From: Roseburia sp.
GTDB lineage: Bacteria > Bacillota > Clostridia > Lachnospirales > Lachnospiraceae
DNA length: 43,305 nt
Reading direction: 5' to 3'
Assembly: GCA_014804775.1 (NCBI GenBank)
Contig: JAAUZB010000008.1
Span: 2,511-45,815 of the forward strand
Position numbers and translations under genes: made by a program. Numbering within the stretch: position 1 is the stretch's first letter; every line of letters begins with the position of its first letter. The notes beneath the pieces are model-generated. The model was not told the DNA's origin. It saw only the letters and a program-made list of their open reading frames with translations, and did not search any database. Below, in pieces: positions 525 to 10,329 of the stretch.

Positions 525-566
525 CATGCATTATTATAATTATTATAACCATTATAATAATGCATG
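525..566. promoter_or_regulatory. Large palindrome upstream of the ROK gene, likely operator
   Basis: The arms at 525-540 and 551-566 are perfect 16-nt inverted repeats (CATGCATTATTATAAT and its complement) with a 10-nt centre. It begins about 19 nt upstream of the ROK start codon, overlapping where the promoter should be. The TTATTATAAT core resembles the A/T-rich half-sites of NagC/XylR-type repressors. The hairpin is not followed by a T-run, so a DNA-binding site is more likely than a terminator. Confidence 0.6.
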
Positions 567-647
567 TCAATATATAATGTTTTTTAAGTTTCCCCATTTG
601 TAGAGGTTTTTAATTTCCCTGTTCTGCCACAATCCCACTCCTAACTG

Positions 648-663
648 CGCTTGGTGGCAAGCG
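648..663. terminator. Small hairpin between the ABC permease and the ROK gene
   Basis: CGCTTG and CAAGCG form a 6-bp stem around GTGG, directly after the stop codon of the permease gene on the minus strand. There is no good U-run after it, so it is only a possible transcript end. Confidence 0.25.
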
Positions 664-678
664 GTAGTTTATCACTCC

Positions 679-1905
679 TTACGCAACCTGATGTTTCTTA
701 AATCCTAATCTTGCTAACGGCAGCATGATTACTGTTAAAAAAAAATAAAGAATTGCCCTTACGGTGAGTGTGTCCAAAACCCAACCGCCGAACTGGTATG
801 AAATATACTTTCCAAATTCTGGCATTGTTGAACGGTAGGGCAGCAAAAACAAAATTAGATTATATGCACCTGTTGTTCCGTTTGGCGTTAGAAACATAGG
901 AATGAACAGTACTGGAACAAGAATGATCAGCACAAGATAAGGACTCTTCATTTGTGCAGACAAAAGGAGTGCCAGTCCAACCATAGCAAGGAGTACCAGA
1001 TAAATAATTCCAATATTGATAAGAACAGCTTGCAAAAATGTGAATGGGTATGGAATTGTCGTATTTGCGATCTGCAACGGCAGATTCCAGCCATCTACCC
1101 CAAACGCTGCAAGCGGCAATCCACACGCCACAACAATATGGAGTATAAATGCAACTGTTCCAAATAAAAGTGATGCTGCAATTTTTGCTATTGCCAGTTT
1201 TGTTTTTCCATATTTTGCAGATAAAATTACCGCATCCGTTCCCGCCTGATATTCGCCGGAAAAGACAGGGGCAACCACAATGCAGATAGCCAGTAATGCG
1301 AACATCAAAAGCTCAAAGCTGCTTATAATGACTTCCCATCCTTCATAATATCCATATTGCAGCGGCACATCCACCTTATCCGCCATACTGCCCCAATATT
1401 CTTTTTGTTCATTGGATAATTTTCGTGATGGATTGTTGAGCAGGGTTTGTATCTTACTTTCCATCGTCTGATAAAAGAATGCTCCGTCTTTTATATCCAG
1501 ATCGGGGAGATTATTGTAGCCCAAAATTTCATTTGGCTTACTGTATGTGTTGGCAATCAGATTAAGCAGTTTTTCCCTTGGAGCAACTCCATTCCAATAG
1601 GCATCGCCAATTAAAAACCGTTCATTTCCGTCATATCCGATATTATCAGGGTTTTCAAAAAGCCCCTGCACTTCTCGAATTGTATCGGCAACATATTCCT
1701 CAGACAAAGGAACGGAAAAACCCGCATACTGCCCCTTTTCATAAGCAATACCATCCGTCCCCTTTATGACACCATCCTGATTGTAAGTTTGGTATTGCAT
1801 AACGGGCAGCCCAAAAAGAAATCCTGTTAAAATCAGGCTGACTGCCATCACGATTAAAGTAGATTTTTTACGCAGTATTTTTAAAAACTCATATTTTACC
1901 AACAT
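679..1905 (-). CDS. ABC-2 type exporter permease (system 1)
   Basis: Membrane half of an ABC exporter, about 408 residues. The chosen start is the ATG at 1905, preceded by AGGAGGAAAGGTGAT; an upstream in-frame ATG at 1938 would lie before this ribosome binding site and overlap the ATPase gene more. A first membrane helix lies at about residues 15-36, followed by a long polar extracytoplasmic stretch (about 37-190) and then roughly five helices in the C-terminal half. This layout is known from ABC-2 permeases such as those of lantibiotic-immunity and antimicrobial-peptide exporters. The gene begins one base after the ATPase stop codon, so the two are translationally coupled. The substrate is unknown; it is most likely paired with the two-component system directly upstream. 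Confidence 0.85.
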   Translation of the reverse strand: MLVKYEFLKILRKKSTLIVMAVSLILTGFLFGLPVMQYQTYNQDGVIKGTDGIAYEKGQYAGFSVPLSEEYVADTIREVQGLFENPDNIGYDGNERFLIGDAYWNGVAPREKLLNLIANTYSKPNEILGYNNLPDLDIKDGAFFYQTMESKIQTLLNNPSRKLSNEQKEYWGSMADKVDVPLQYGYYEGWEVIISSFELLMFALLAICIVVAPVFSGEYQAGTDAVILSAKYGKTKLAIAKIAASLLFGTVAFILHIVVACGLPLAAFGVDGWNLPLQIANTTIPYPFTFLQAVLINIGIIYLVLLAMVGLALLLSAQMKSPYLVLIILVPVLFIPMFLTPNGTTGAYNLILFLLPYRSTMPEFGKYISYQFGGWVLDTLTVRAILYFFLTVIMLPLARLGFKKHQVA

Positions 1906-6161: not shown

Positions 6162-6744
6162 TTTGGTTATCCTCCATAAAGATATAGTCCACAAGGTCAG
6201 CAATCAATCTGCTGACTGTTTCTTCTCTGTATTCTTCAATTAACAAATCCGAACTTTTTGCTAAATTGATTACATGAATATAATTGTCTATCACTTCGGG
6301 AATAACTTTTTCTGTATTGATGTTTCCAAAATCAAGTAACTTTCTTATCCATCCTGTTTCTGTATCCGCATAATTTTCCGCTGAAAATTTTTCAGTCAAT
6401 TTGTCAATTTCTTTATGTTCCCTAAAATAAAATCCAATTTCGGGCGTATCAAAAAGATTTTCAAGAAATTTTTGAATAGTACTTTTTATGTCCTTATCCA
6501 GATTTTTAAGTACAGTTTCTTCAGCTAGACGGAAAAGATTTTGATTAATAGCGACAAGCAACTGATAAAAGAAATCTTCTTTAGATTTGAAATATAAATA
6601 AAATGTTCCTTTAGCGATTTTCGCCTCAGCAACTATATCATCAACCGTAGTTTTTTTTATGCCATATTGTAACATGAGTTTTTTCCCTATTTCCAATAAA
6701 TATTTTTTTTGCATTTGTTTTTCTTTGTCTGATTTTAATGGCAT
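6154..6744 (-). CDS. TetR/AcrR-family transcriptional regulator
   Basis: Repressor of 196 residues. The N-terminal helix-turn-helix (about 12-58) reads GIKKTTVDDIVAEAKIAKGT followed by FYLYFKSKEDFF, the hallmark of TetR proteins. The remaining alpha-helical domain binds a small ligand and dimerises; it is too variable to name the ligand. The start at 6744 has AAAGGAG at proper distance. A strong promoter and a TGACT-palindrome between promoter and start codon indicate self-repression. The alpha/beta hydrolase gene follows with an overlap and is the probable target. Confidence 0.92.
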   Translation of the reverse strand: MPLKSDKEKQMQKKYLLEIGKKLMLQYGIKKTTVDDIVAEAKIAKGTFYLYFKSKEDFFYQLLVAINQNLFRLAEETVLKNLDKDIKSTIQKFLENLFDTPEIGFYFREHKEIDKLTEKFSAENYADTETGWIRKLLDFGNINTEKVIPEVIDNYIHVINLAKSSDLLIEEYREETVSRLIADLVDYIFMEDNQNE

Positions 6745-6765
6745 TGTTGGCTCCTTTCCTTATGA

Positions 6766-6817
6766 TGACTTAATTAGTCAGTTTGGTCATTATAGCACAA
6801 AAAAGAAAGATTATCAA
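6766..6817 (-). promoter_or_regulatory. TetR gene promoter with palindromic operator
   Basis: TTGATA (6817-6812), 17 bp and TATAAT (6794-6789) form a near-perfect sigma-A promoter on the minus strand. The palindrome TGACTTAATTAGTCA (6766-6780) lies just downstream at the expected transcription start, where a bound TetR dimer would block transcription. Confidence 0.7.
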
Positions 6818-6903
6818 TCACATTCACCCAATTTCATTTTTCATAAAATTTTTAAAAACAATCTGCAACTGTTGGTTGTATATTTTTCGCTTTACACTAT
6901 ATG

Positions 6904-6925
6904 TACAAATCTAGGTATTCTTGTA
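6904..6925. promoter_or_regulatory. Possible operator before the HTH-OPRT gene
   Basis: TACAA (6904-6908) and TTGTA (6921-6925) form an inverted repeat next to a weak -10 (TATTAT at 6924). It could be bound by the HTH domain of the gene downstream. The arms are short and could arise by chance in this A/T-rich stretch. Confidence 0.25.
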
Positions 6926-6953
6926 TTATATTGTTAAGAAAGGGAGTGATACT

Positions 6954-7784
6954 ATGGAATTGATTGGAACAAAAATTCAGACATTACGAAAAAATAAGAA
7001 TATAACGCAAGCCCAACTTGCAGAAGTATTAGCGGTTTCTTCCCAATCAGTAAGCAAATGGGAAAACAATCTGTCTATACCTGATATTTCTCTATTACCA
7101 ATTATTGCGAGATTTCTTGGTATTACAATGGATGACCTCTTCAATTACCGACTGGATGCTTTAAATTACAAGGAACGATTTATTCGCTTTATGGCTGATA
7201 ATGGCGTTCTCCAATTTGGTGAATTCAGGCTTCAAAGCGGTCGCCTTTCACCATATTTTGTCAACACCGGAAAATATAAGTCTGCCAGCCAAATAACTAA
7301 GTTGGGCGAATTCTATGCAGAGTGTATGCGCGAACATAATATAAACTCTAATTTACTTGCAGGAAATACTCATCAAGAGATTCCAATAATGATTGCAACC
7401 AGCATGACCTTGTTTAATCGGTACGGAATTGACATTTCATACAGTATTGACGACAGCGTTGGAAAACAAATGGATGAACGAGACAAGATTACTTTGATCA
7501 AAGATACATTGACATCTGGTCAAACACTTCATGCAAATCTGCTGGCAATACAAAAAAATGCGGGTAAATGTGTGTCCGATGTGATTGTATCGGTTGACCG
7601 TATGGAGAAAAATACAACTTCTCATGGTTCTGCCCGGTACGAAATAGAGAAAATGCACGATGTGAAGATTCATTCTATTGTCACTTTGGATGATATCATC
7701 CATGCGGTAGAAAACGGTGTCATCGGTGGAACAGAATACCTGACAGCGATAAAGCAATACAAAGAAGAATATGGAGTAGAATGA
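6954..7784 (+). CDS. XRE-type HTH domain fused to an orotate phosphoribosyltransferase-like domain
   Basis: 276 residues from the ATG at 6954 (GGGAG before it; the ATG at 6921 has none). Residues about 8-60 are a Cro/C1 helix-turn-helix (ITQAQLAEVLAVSSQSVSKW). Residues about 72-276 align with E. coli-type PyrE: FGEFRLQSGRLSPYF, LGEFYAE, IVSVDRMEK. Several active-site elements differ. The Lys of LKSGRKSPYF is Gln94, the KDHGEGG catalytic loop is shortened and lost (about 164-178), GPAYKG is GNTHQE, and the PRPP motif VDDVITAGT reads IKDTLTSGQ. It may therefore be a regulator whose OPRT domain senses orotate, PRPP or OMP, comparable to PurR, rather than an active enzyme. This is inference. pyrF starts one base after its stop codon. 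Confidence 0.85.
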   Translation: MELIGTKIQTLRKNKNITQAQLAEVLAVSSQSVSKWENNLSIPDISLLPIIARFLGITMDDLFNYRLDALNYKERFIRFMADNGVLQFGEFRLQSGRLSPYFVNTGKYKSASQITKLGEFYAECMREHNINSNLLAGNTHQEIPIMIATSMTLFNRYGIDISYSIDDSVGKQMDERDKITLIKDTLTSGQTLHANLLAIQKNAGKCVSDVIVSVDRMEKNTTSHGSARYEIEKMHDVKIHSIVTLDDIIHAVENGVIGGTEYLTAIKQYKEEYGVE

Positions 7785-7785
7785 A

Positions 7786-8694
7786 ATGATAATCGACCAA
7801 CTGATTGAAGGAATCAAAAATAAGAAGAACCCTTGTATAGTAGGTATTGACCCCGAATGGTGCAAAATACCAGAGTGCTATAAATATGATTCAAGCACCA
7901 AAGCAAATTCAATCCTTAATTGGGCAACAGACGTGATTGATGTTGTGGCAGATATTGTACCAGCAGTAAAACCCCAAATGGCTTTTTTTGAAGTCTTTGG
8001 TGCAGATGGTGTGCGAGTACATCAGCAGGTTGTGCAGTATGCTCATGATAAGGGACTTGTTGTAATAGATGACAGCAAGCGGAATGACATTGGAAACACT
8101 GCAAAAGCCTACGCATATGCACACTTAGCAAAGGATGGACCAATCAACGCAGATTTTATGACCGTTTCACCATTCTTGGGTACAGACAGCATTCAACCCT
8201 TCATTGATATAGCAGTCAAGGATGAAAAGGGAATCTTTGTGCTGGTCAGGACCTCAAATTCCAGTTCTGTTGAAATCTCTGAAGCGACCAATGCCCAAGG
8301 TGAAAAAATTCGAAACTGGCTGGCAAACTATATTCATACAGCAGGAAGTGATTGTATCGGTAAATACAATTATTCAAATATCGGTGCCGTAGTCGGGGCA
8401 ACATTTCCCGAGGAAGCGCAATTGCTTCGCAGTATTATGAAGAACAATTTCTTCCTTGTCCCTGGATTTGTCGCACAGGGAGGCGAAGCCAAAGATGTTA
8501 TGCCCTGTTTCAATGAGGACGGTTTAGGCGCAATTGTCAGTTCATCCAGAAATGTACTTTATAAACACTTAGAAATTGCAGAATACGACGGAACCCCAAC
8601 CATGTATGTTGAAATTGTAAGGAATCAGGCAAAGACTATGCAGGAAGCTGTTTATCAAGAGCTGAGTAATCATTACCCGAATAAAGAATACTAA
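7786..8694 (+). CDS. pyrF: Orotidine 5'-phosphate decarboxylase, long (type 2) form
   Basis: Catalyses OMP to UMP, the last step of de novo UMP synthesis, in the cytoplasm. 302 residues, as usual for the type 2 family. The catalytic signature DxKxxDIGNT is present as DSKRNDIGNT (Asp96, Lys98, Asp101), and GIDPEW near residue 20 is the conserved substrate-binding start. The phosphate-binding end is represented by LVPGFVAQGG and the region SSSRNVL. Its start codon lies directly behind the HTH-OPRT stop codon, so the two are cotranscribed and probably coupled. No other pyr gene is in the window. Confidence 0.93.
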   Translation: MIIDQLIEGIKNKKNPCIVGIDPEWCKIPECYKYDSSTKANSILNWATDVIDVVADIVPAVKPQMAFFEVFGADGVRVHQQVVQYAHDKGLVVIDDSKRNDIGNTAKAYAYAHLAKDGPINADFMTVSPFLGTDSIQPFIDIAVKDEKGIFVLVRTSNSSSVEISEATNAQGEKIRNWLANYIHTAGSDCIGKYNYSNIGAVVGATFPEEAQLLRSIMKNNFFLVPGFVAQGGEAKDVMPCFNEDGLGAIVSSSRNVLYKHLEIAEYDGTPTMYVEIVRNQAKTMQEAVYQELSNHYPNKEY

Positions 8695-8723
8695 CAATTA
8701 CCCAAGAAGTGAAGAACATTATT

Positions 8724-8756
8724 AAAGCGCTTCTGGTAAATAACCTGAAGCGCTTT
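8724..8756. terminator. Hairpin between convergent pyrF and the His/Cys-rich lipoprotein gene
   Basis: AAAGCGCTTC (8724-8733) and GAAGCGCTTT (8747-8756) form a perfect 10-bp stem with a 13-nt loop. It sits 30 nt after pyrF and 30 nt after the convergent gene, so it may end both transcripts, although U-runs are weak. Confidence 0.6.
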
Positions 8757-8787
8757 GTGAGAGTGATTCTCTTATATTTAAAAGATT

Positions 8788-9300
8788 TTAATGATGGTCA
8801 CCCCCGTGGTGTTGTTCCTCATGGTGCTGCCCCGATTCATTAACATCACTCATGCCATTGTGATGGTGACTCGTTTCCATGCAGTTCAAGTCGCAGTTGT
8901 GGTAATGCTCATAATCTCCACAGTCTGGCGGACAGTCATGGTGGTGAGTTGGGTCCGTGCAGTTCGGGTCACTGCATCCCATTCCACTGACAAAAGATTC
9001 TGCTGTATCTGCCGTTGAATCGGTATTATAATCCGCTCCATTATGGTGGTGACTCGTTTCCGTGCAATTCAAGTCACAGTTGTGGTAATGCTCATAATCT
9101 CCACAGTCTGGCGGACAGTCATGGTGGTGGGTTGGGTCCGTGCAGTTCGAGTCACTGCATCCCATTCCGCTGACAAATACTGCTTTGCCAGATACATCAT
9201 CCTGAAGATGAGAAGATAAGTTCATACCCCTGTCTCTTTGACCGCATCCGGTCAGAAATATCAAACACCCAAACATGGCGGTGCAAAGAAATCTTTTCAT
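8788..9300 (-). CDS. Lipoprotein with two His/Cys-rich tandem repeats, putative metal binder
   Basis: 170 residues from the ATG at 9300 (GGAGGAGG before it). A lipoprotein signal ends in LTGC, with Cys19 as lipidation site, so the mature protein is anchored outside the membrane. Residues about 42-88 and 103-149 are two nearly identical units. Each holds GCSDxNC, THHHDCPPDC, EHYHNCDLNC and SHHHNG: six cysteines and about eight histidines per unit. The C-terminal tail is again His-rich (QHHEEQHHGGDHH). Such spacing suggests binding of Zn, Cu, Ni or similar soft metals, or storage of them. I do not recognise the family. At DNA level the units are two 140-bp direct repeats 183 bp apart, indicating recent duplication. 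Confidence 0.75.
   Translation of the reverse strand: MKRFLCTAMFGCLIFLTGCGQRDRGMNLSSHLQDDVSGKAVFVSGMGCSDSNCTDPTHHHDCPPDCGDYEHYHNCDLNCTETSHHHNGADYNTDSTADTAESFVSGMGCSDPNCTDPTHHHDCPPDCGDYEHYHNCDLNCMETSHHHNGMSDVNESGQHHEEQHHGGDHH
8855..9177. repeat. Two 140-bp direct repeats inside the lipoprotein gene
   Basis: 8855-8994 and 9038-9177 are almost identical, differing at a handful of mostly silent positions. The period is 183 bp, which is 61 codons, so expansion or loss of a unit keeps the reading frame. Confidence 0.9.
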
Positions 9301-9353
9301 GTATCTTCCTCCTCCCAAAATCAATCTTTCTTTTTTATTTCGCTTGTGTAAAA

Positions 9354-9402: not shown

Positions 9403-10329
9403 TTATCCCATCTTGTCAACAAACTCTTCTAACGATGCTGCCCTTGCCGCTAGTTTATGCCATTGTTTTAATACATCCAGATTCTTTTCTGCATGTATTC
9501 TATCTCTTAATTTTTGCGGTATTTGCCCGTAATCCTCCAACAGTTCCAAAATATCCTCTGCCTTTCCAATAATCCTTCCAGCTGTCTTTCCCTCATTTAC
9601 ACCGTCAACTTTTCCCTCATCATATGCCTCTTCCCGTATGCTTTTCATGTGAGCTTCTTCGTCATATTCAAATATGCTCATCTCTATCGCCTCCGCTCGA
9701 TTTTTCATCAGAAAATCAGATAAAATTCCCTCCTGTATACATTCCGTAACAGCCCGGTTTACCGCCTCTTCTATCCCGTTTTCTGATAAATATTTTCTAA
9801 CCCGTTCCACATACTGCATATATTCTTTTAGCATCCTGCAGCTCTTCAGCAATTCCTCATTCTTGCCGGGATTGATATTCAGCACCGTTACGATCAATTC
9901 CAGCTCTGGCTGTTCTGTTTCCTTTTCAAATGCATCTGACAACCGGTATTTCCTCTTCTCCGGCTGTTCGGTCACGCCATTGTAAAATACGACAAACTTT
10001 GGTGTGGGTATTTTCACCGTCTTAGAACCGTATAAGTTTTCACTTTTTACAATGTTCTGCAACACCTTTGACACATATAACAAATCTCTCAACGGTATAT
10101 TCGGGTTTACCGTGGACTGATGCTCGTAAAGACTTAGTGTCAGGTCAAACACGAAAGAAACATCATTTTTCATGTTCATATAGATTGCATTTTCGAGTGT
10201 GCTGATCTCTAAATCCTCACTGTTGTCATAGTCTGTTCTGTTTAGCGCATTGTACAGACTCAAAAGTCTCTCCCTGTCACTGAATATCATCCGAAACAGC
10301 GTGTCCTTGTAGTTGCGTCTTACCTCCAT
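9403..10329 (-). CDS. Rpn-family recombination-promoting nuclease / PD-(D/E)XK transposase-like protein
   Basis: 308 residues; the start at 10329 has AAGGAGG. The N-terminus (NYKDTLFRMIF) and the core segment FDLTLSLYEHQST match the RpnA/YhgA-like family, in which the DxxxxxE-x-Q residues of a PD-(D/E)XK nuclease lie in the E-H-Q strand. The strand PKFVVFYNGV and the segment LELIVTVLNIN also fit. The C-terminal third is a charged helical region with Gly-rich EGKVDG-like repeats (about 230-255), common in these proteins. Rpn proteins cleave DNA and promote RecA-independent recombination in E. coli, but many copies in Clostridia have no known role. It stands alone, without inverted repeats or an insertion sequence around it. 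Confidence 0.8.
   Translation of the reverse strand: MEVRRNYKDTLFRMIFSDRERLLSLYNALNRTDYDNSEDLEISTLENAIYMNMKNDVSFVFDLTLSLYEHQSTVNPNIPLRDLLYVSKVLQNIVKSENLYGSKTVKIPTPKFVVFYNGVTEQPEKRKYRLSDAFEKETEQPELELIVTVLNINPGKNEELLKSCRMLKEYMQYVERVRKYLSENGIEEAVNRAVTECIQEGILSDFLMKNRAEAIEMSIFEYDEEAHMKSIREEAYDEGKVDGVNEGKTAGRIIGKAEDILELLEDYGQIPQKLRDRIHAEKNLDVLKQWHKLAARAASLEEFVDKMG

Follow-up and report, generated by a model that had tools for sequence, protein, structure and literature searches.

What a DNA-binding domain does at the front of an OPRT domain, and whether such a protein is still an enzyme of pyrimidine synthesis, are the questions raised by a gene found in 43,305 nucleotides of Roseburia sp. DNA (the whole stretch analysed, hereafter the window). 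A preliminary description of this DNA had read the gene as an XRE-type HTH fused to an OPRT domain without its catalytic loop and coupled to pyrF, and this architecture is confirmed in the window (Table 1). The HTH_3-type domain scores 50.7 bits against a Pfam cut-off of 23, as an XRE/Cro-type regulator domain does, and structural alignment assigns the remainder to the OPRT fold, while the score against the PyrE equivalog model TIGR00336 (88.4 bits) falls under the cut-off of 106.8. The PyrF encoded 1 nt further on is intact, reaches 245.1 bits against TIGR02127 (OMP decarboxylase type 2; cut-off 110.6) and contains the catalytic DxKxxD motif of OMP decarboxylase. The two genes are best read as an operon in which the fusion and a spare OMP decarboxylase, a substrate-removing enzyme, would share one transcript. 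The overall interpretation favoured here, at a probability of roughly 0.6, is an autoregulated, horizontally moving module of an OMP or orotate sensor and an OMP decarboxylase, activated by its ligand.

Table 1. Positions of the sequence features discussed (in the window unless a locus is given)
Feature	Position	Strand	Remarks
Operator-like inverted repeat GCAACTGTTGGTTGT	6865..6879	+	9/12 positions of family consensus TCAACCnnnGGTTGA
Promoter-like hexamers	TGTACA 6902-6907; TATTAT 6924-6929	+	16 nt gap; consensus match only
XRE-OPRT fusion gene	6954..7784	+	276 aa; HTH at about residues 5-64, OPRT-like domain at residues 70-275
Retained hood motif FGEFRLQSGRLSPYF	7215..7259	+	residues 88-102; orotate side of OPRT site
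Former diphosphate pocket	7359..7385	+	AGNTHQEIP, residues 136-144; FGPAYKGIP in the genome's PyrE
Site of deleted catalytic loop	7452..7463	+	around residues 167-170; PyrE E102 to about L112 missing
Phosphate-loop motif IKDTLTSG	7497..7520	+	residues 182-189; first acid replaced by Lys183
pyrF, type-2 OMP decarboxylase	7786..8694	+	302 aa; D96, K98 and D101 of DxKxxD
Strong hairpin 3' of pyrF	8724..8756	+	z -5.47; terminator-like, without T run
Type B genes	L014:1507-2304; L054:1540-2325; L055:1504-2295; L149:1498-2289		
NUDIX genes	L040:3361-3867; L043:3363-3851; L044:1752-2336 and 6757-7242; L157:3010-4866		by eye; Pfam confirms L040 only

The preliminary description had suggested looking for the same fusion in other Clostridia, and two types could be distinguished there. 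Fifteen loci including the window belong to type A, with a changed OPRT domain that lacks the catalytic loop, and a pyrF of the same type lies directly downstream in all fifteen; one of them (L046) is cut before the HTH by a contig end. Ten type A loci (L039-L048) derive from a species-wide search (one genome per species, 84,980 species, returning close relatives only), in which the other two of the twelve loci found were plain PyrE (L049, L050); L010 and L011 derive from a sample of 98 related genomes and L146 and L147 from a family sample of 397 genomes. L040 and L041 are close copies. Type B, an XRE and OPRT fusion with a shorter C-terminus, comprises four loci, from the 98 relatives (L014), the order sample (L054, L055) and the family sample (L149). 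No pyrF was found in the stretches of 9-12 kb around these four, and the sole OMPdecase-family gene of each type B genome sits on another contig. Downstream of L055, a gene resembling thymidylate synthase was seen by eye and, beyond it, one resembling dihydrofolate reductase (in L155).

The spread of the XRE-OPRT fusion is sparse. Counting the own genome, either type occurs in 4/98 relatives (E <= 1e-20) and 5/397 genomes of the family sample (E <= 1e-60). Matches that start in the HTH come from the own genome, G432 and G351 in the order sample (392 genomes), and from the own genome alone in the class (391 genomes; E <= 1e-45) and phylum samples (398 genomes; E <= 1e-60). In a tree of 95 OPRT domains types A and B form clades (support 100/99 and 100/100, respectively), and a branch with 99/81 support sets both apart from all 77 plain PyrE. 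This topology fits a single XRE-OPRT fusion followed by divergence, with types A and B joining on long stems in a grouping that may be false. A PyrE-like frame near the end of a phage-collection record ('Bacteriophage sp.' from human faeces, MT835471.1:88398-89057) matches residues 68-276 of the fusion at 45 % identity, with the HTH part unmatched, and is thereby closer to this OPRT part than the own genome's plain PyrE is (33 %).

The active site was compared in an alignment of the 77 plain PyrE, fourteen type A (L046 being omitted on account of its contig end) and four type B domains. PyrE positions are those of the genome's own PyrE, which agree with E. coli at K26 and are shifted by +1 to +4 from residue 70. 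Roles in OPRT are taken from excerpts of PMC10087573 for the loop Lys and K26, of PMC5430920 for the ribose acids, 5'-phosphate loop and diphosphate contacts, and of PMC4427171 for the hood, which covers orotate. All 77 plain PyrE contain K26, GPAYKG, R100, K101, E102, K104, D105, H106, G107 and an acid at position 127. The loop, present in every plain PyrE, is absent from E102 to about L112 in 14/14 type A domains, and with it the catalytic Lys103 and His105 (E. coli numbering). The pocket Lys (K74; Lys73 in E. coli), found in 77/77 plain PyrE, is lost in thirteen of the fourteen, which carry Arg (7), Gln (5) or His (1), with Lys in the remaining one. Position 127 (183 in the window) is Lys in nine, Thr in three and Glu in two, and the K26 position is Gln in nine, Lys in four and Arg in one.

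Other parts of the site are retained in all fourteen type A domains, including the hood residues F88, G89, F91, S95, G96, R97 and P100 (window numbering), the ribose/5'-phosphate residues D184, T187 and G189, and R216 and E218; the conserved Arg presumably contacts orotate. Column entropy was calculated over thirteen type A rows (L041 being dropped), with columns assigned to the nucleotide or diphosphate side by the analyst and significance estimated by circular shifts. Against a domain mean of 1.12 bits, the nucleotide-side columns average 0.47 bits (17/28 invariant; as low in 1.3 % of shifts) and the diphosphate-side columns 1.86 bits (1/24 invariant; as high in 4.5 % of shifts). Taken alone, neither the conservation of the 5'-phosphate loop (20 % of shifts as low) nor the variability of pocket I (28 % as high) is significant. 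Type B domains keep both ribose acids, have a MAYHG or LAYHG pocket and a changed catalytic loop (RKVADSRGR type), and share the upstream box described below. Their hood motif is largely lost, so that the type B ligand may not be orotate-like.

On the basis of this degenerate active site the fusion is predicted to lack OPRT catalysis. A bifunctional enzyme, in which a regulated and still active OPRT feeds PyrF, would suit the adjacent pyrF and the intact fold, but is highly improbable given the deleted Lys/His loop and the pocket Lys lost in all type A domains but one; in the excerpt of PMC10087573, acetylation of the loop Lys is by itself enough to reduce kcat 150- to 300-fold in E. coli OPRTase. 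The cell also has another OPRT. The lack of a complete pyrE elsewhere in a prototrophic host had been named in the preliminary description as evidence that would count against a sensor, and an intact PyrE is encoded on contig C18 of the own genome (G000; 99.91 % complete, contamination 6.06 %). The same genome has a second OMPdecase-family gene on C58 (219.5 bits) with, by eye, the DLKLHDIPNT motif of type-1 PyrF. In each of the five type A genomes searched (G000, G042, G054, G842, which is 86 % complete, and G926) a single PyrE exceeds the cut-off and the OMPdecase family has exactly two genes, including that of the module; in each of the four type B genomes a single PyrE likewise exceeds the cut-off and the family has one gene. 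In all nine genomes the XRE-OPRT protein is under the TIGR00336 cut-off and one other gene is over it. The OMPdecase Pfam family also includes HUMPS enzymes, and the second gene was checked to be PyrF for G000 and G926 (L196, a type-2 PyrF). Since the five type A genomes each have a complete pyrE, and a further pyrF-family gene, outside the module, the fusion is not the cell's OPRT.

Both genes of the module are maintained. K62, D96, K98, D101, Q231 and R255 are conserved in 14/14 module PyrF, which form one clade separate from eight host type-2 PyrF (support 100/100). Among 170 columns invariant in these eight, 102 vary or differ in the module set, and some module-specific changes present in 14/14, such as N100 for G and N104 for S, adjoin the catalytic motif. 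Pairwise distances of the fusion and the module PyrF are correlated (r = 0.89; 78 non-independent pairs from 13 loci). Ratios of dN/dS (Nei-Gojobori) were calculated for the window against L039, L040, L041 and L042, the other nine window pairs being saturated at silent sites in OPRT and PyrF and left unused. They amount, respectively, to 0.185, 0.151, 0.156 and 0.107 for the OPRT part, 0.189, 0.193, 0.168 and 0.170 for PyrF, and 0.387, 0.115, 0.090 and 0.138 for the HTH; of five non-window pairs tried, two gave OPRT values (L048-L146, 0.067; L045-L043, 0.080). Purifying selection on the OPRT domain is about as strong as on pyrF, and the gene is not decaying.

DNA homology with the window begins at the operator-like box (window position 6861 for L039 and L041, 6864 for L040 and L042) and ends at 8764 (L039), 8699 (L040), 8696 (L041), 8700 (L042) and 8696 (L046, whose contig starts inside the gene). 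It thus stops just past the pyrF stop in four of the five relatives, which represent fewer than five independent boundary cases, L040 and L041 being almost copies of each other. In more distant loci the alignment is confined to the gene region, from its start inwards. The hairpin stretch downstream of pyrF is common to the window and L039 alone, and no intrinsic terminator was recorded at 8724-8756 in a promoter and terminator scan of 6700-8900. By eye the neighbourhoods differ among loci, with the exception of ABC-transporter ATPase genes a few kb off in the window, L040 and L042 (68 % over 541 and 152 nt) and of NUDIX hydrolase genes, which in four loci are found a few kb or less from the module, perhaps by chance, and were not seen near the window module. 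In the stretches read, inspection by eye showed no transposase or recombinase at either end of the module. Horizontal movement of the module as a single unit is the best reading of these boundaries.

Beside the closest copy of the module, L039 encodes a Rep_trans replication initiation factor (543-1622, minus strand; E 2.1e-51), which hints at a mobile element. In the window, positions 8788-9324 (minus strand) encode a small lipoprotein-like protein with two near-identical His/Cys-rich repeats (GMGCSDxNCTDPTHHHDCPPDCGDYEHYHNCDLNC) and no Pfam match, and positions 9403-10329 (minus strand) a 308-aa protein that by eye resembles relatives of Rpn-type transposases/nucleases, with no Pfam match at E 0.001.

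An XRE protein and an enzyme on a mobile islet could also constitute a defence or toxin-antitoxin module, with which the patchy spread, the varied neighbourhoods and the replication gene beside the L039 copy would agree. This is nonetheless quite unlikely, as 15 of the 16 PADLOC matches of the fusion fall at its HTH end, the other is a weak match to a restriction-enzyme model (E 0.0056), and PyrF has none. Among the matches listed, no record of the plasmid (10 of 28 records) or phage collection (10 of 18) covers 80 % of the fusion, and in viral contigs 40 loci match its N-terminal part only (query residues <= 125).

How the module would be controlled is suggested by the box upstream of the fusion gene. 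A match to CAACNNNNNGTTG in the window taken by itself is no rarity (one found, 0.59 expected by chance), so that the weight of the box lies in the comparison across loci, and promoter-like matches number 9 in 6700-8900, as against 7.3 in shuffled sequences. Eighteen upstream regions were scored, from fourteen type A loci (L041 included, L046 having none) and the four type B loci. Of the 12 defined positions of TCAACCnnnGGTTGA, 9 or more are matched in 16/18 regions and 10 or more in 11/18; mononucleotide shuffles reached 9 positions in 129/2000 and 10 in 10/2000 cases. In the window the -35 hexamer starts 22 nt past the box, and in 17/18 regions the best box has, at exactly this distance downstream, a T-initial hexamer sharing two to five of six letters with TTGACA. 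The best promoter-like pair downstream lies at this distance in 13/18 regions (L047 by a tie) and ties for the top score in L010 and L149, while pairs at other spots score higher in L054 and L055. L047 has a half-box only, and in L146, where the script picked another spot, a half-box was seen by eye 22 nt before TTGTAA. In a column profile of fifteen rows (the misplaced L146 included), only the promoter hexamers and single columns match the conservation of the box.

The centre of the box would lie at about -65 from the transcription start deduced from the hexamers. A position near -65 is that of a class-I activator, a repressor site more usually overlapping the promoter, and class-I activation is therefore the most likely mode for a box placed about 65 bp before the start. 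The repressor envisaged in the preliminary description is accordingly not the reading adopted, and activation instead of repression is considered somewhat the better-founded direction. Repression differs from the favoured reading in direction only: the apo protein would shut the operon and OMP or orotate would release it, as in PurR. XRE proteins are often autorepressors, and by eye L044 has a second box-like stretch nearer the promoter. Against this stand the 22-nt spacing ahead of the T-initial hexamer in all regions but one and the lack of a second block conserved like the box in the fifteen-row profile (with L146 misplaced), and repression is judged unlikely, at perhaps one chance in a few. 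The alternatives weighed here overlap with the favoured reading, and their odds need not sum to one.

The box is not confined to XRE-OPRT genes. A stricter pattern gave 19 sites in nine genomes, six of which precede XRE-OPRT genes and three other XRE genes (L163, L168 and L171, around position 1501); in the own genome a box also occurs upstream of another XRE gene (C30:50848). The spacing is again 22 nt in L171, where the XRE start was read from DNA, while L163, L168 and C30 show by eye no clear -35 at this distance. Since it also precedes other XRE genes, the box seems tied to the type of HTH and not to pyrimidine control, and a large group of clostridial XRE proteins with similar HTH domains may use the TCAAC-n5-GTTGA box as a general site of autoregulation. 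A search of the own genome for CAACYNNNRGTTG found eight places (each on both strands), as many as a reversed control; the module's own box accounts for one and a site upstream of a further XRE gene for another. The nearest open frames at the other six were by eye not pyrimidine-like, and a wider pyrimidine regulon was rejected, this search having given no evidence of pyrimidine-gene control beyond the module. Some 3 kb from the module in G054, a gene assigned by Pfam to DUF554 is preceded at 127 nt by a box TCAACCGGTGGTTGT (L157:2174-2188; G054 C10:342173); its box-to-promoter spacing is different, and the gene is no more than a lead.

The proposal of an enzyme turned sensor, made in the preliminary description, has thus gained from the loop gap, the purifying selection, the operator-like box and the constant pyrF linkage. 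The catalytically dead OPRT very probably serves as the sensor of a DNA-binding protein, and control by the fusion of its own pyrF operon is only slightly less probable. Orotate, PRPP and OMP had been put forward as ligands. As the orotate/nucleotide half of the site is better kept and the diphosphate half lost, OMP and orotate appear the better candidates and PRPP loses ground; that the ligand is one of these two is reasonably likely. Counting against OMP, Lys26 and the first ribose acid, both of which help to hold OMP, are often changed in type A, and the 5'-phosphate loop by itself lacks significant conservation. Also to be set against the favoured reading are the boxes ahead of other XRE genes, the two half-boxes, the type B box found without the hood, the module-specific PyrF changes next to the catalytic motif and the long branches on which types A and B join. 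A sensor of another nucleotide or of PRPP (UMP or ppGpp, for example), with pyrF its target for other reasons, would be in keeping with the invariant D184, T187 and G189 of the 5'-phosphate loop and with PurR, a protein of this fold that in the excerpt of PMC8789054 binds PRPP as well as (p)ppGpp, the latter in its PRT pocket. The contacts to the PRPP diphosphate are gone, however, the orotate hood is among the better conserved parts and pyrF is linked in 15/15 loci, so that such a sensor is rather improbable, a little more so than repression.

The sequence of events under the favoured reading, ligand-dependent activation of the module, may be outlined as follows. OPRTs are dimers, and the XRE domain, as a dimer, would occupy the TCAACCnnnGGTTGA-type box that precedes its own promoter. 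With the diphosphate side lost but the hood, the greater part of the 5'-phosphate loop, a single acid and the conserved Arg retained, the OPRT pocket would bind OMP (or orotate) without turnover. Bound ligand would increase operon transcription, class-I activation being the most likely mode, and PyrF would then remove OMP and close the loop. The purpose can be guessed at as a response to OMP or orotate overflow, or as relief when the main OMP decarboxylase is blocked; orotate may come from the diet, and C-nucleoside antibiotics such as pyrazofurin inhibit OMP decarboxylase. More tentatively, and with somewhat less than even confidence, the whole may represent a new class of bacterial metabolite sensor, a mobile circuit of two genes in which an OPRT with mainly the nucleotide side of its active site left senses OMP and activates its own promoter from a fixed upstream box. 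A second OMP decarboxylase, dedicated to clearing the signal, would thereby be induced, while a sister lineage without the adjacent pyrF and the orotate hood would sense something else.

Regulators built on PRT folds are known from other systems. PurR of Bacillus likewise carries an N-terminal DNA-binding domain on an inactive PRT fold that serves as effector pocket, as described in the excerpt of PMC8789054, and the pyrE-annotated gene pyrE1 of the haloarchaeon Haloarcula hispanica encodes GfcR, a transcription activator according to the excerpt of PMC11519228. PurR differs in its winged helix (PF09182) and PRT subfamily, and it binds PRPP and controls purine genes, whereas the fusion combines an XRE HTH with an OPRT domain lacking the diphosphate side and has pyrF as partner; PF09182 is absent from the thirteen Pfam matches of the fusion (E <= 1). 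GfcR differs in being archaeal and in controlling sugar-degradation genes, and the fusion scores 13.7 bits against the GfcR model NF045507 (cut-off 300). Neither PurR nor GfcR appears among the 50 structural matches listed, which is no evidence that the folds differ. GfcR consists of an HTH and a PRT (PyrE-like) domain, and we know of no coupling to pyrF. Pyrimidine control in Firmicutes is mainly by PyrR and RNA, PyrR of Bacillus being a PRT fold (uracil-PRT-like) in the form of an RNA-binding attenuator and active UPRT. No PyrR model was found among the Pfam matches of the fusion or among the best 25 of its 30 other model matches, and Rfam gave no match in the window at gathering scores and none in 6700-8900 at E <= 1, and hence no PyrR RNA site.

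In an open-licence search of PMC, no paper on the XRE-OPRT fusion or its pyrF operon was found by title or abstract start among the matches listed, subscription literature being outside its scope. If the interpretation is true, the fusion would to our knowledge be the third case, after PurR and GfcR, of a PRT recruited as the sensor of a transcription factor, and, should OMP be the ligand, the first OMP-responsive regulator known to us. Use as a biosensor for OMP or orotate is conceivable as well. PyrE has an intact pocket, a catalytic loop and no HTH, whereas in the fusion the loop is deleted, the pocket changed and the HTH added. Comparison of intact PyrE with loop-deleted type A and partly changed type B makes it possible to trace the route from enzyme to sensor and to put it to the test. 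The marks that set the fusion apart from PurR and GfcR, as read from sequence, are its coupling to pyrF, the lost diphosphate side and the upstream box.
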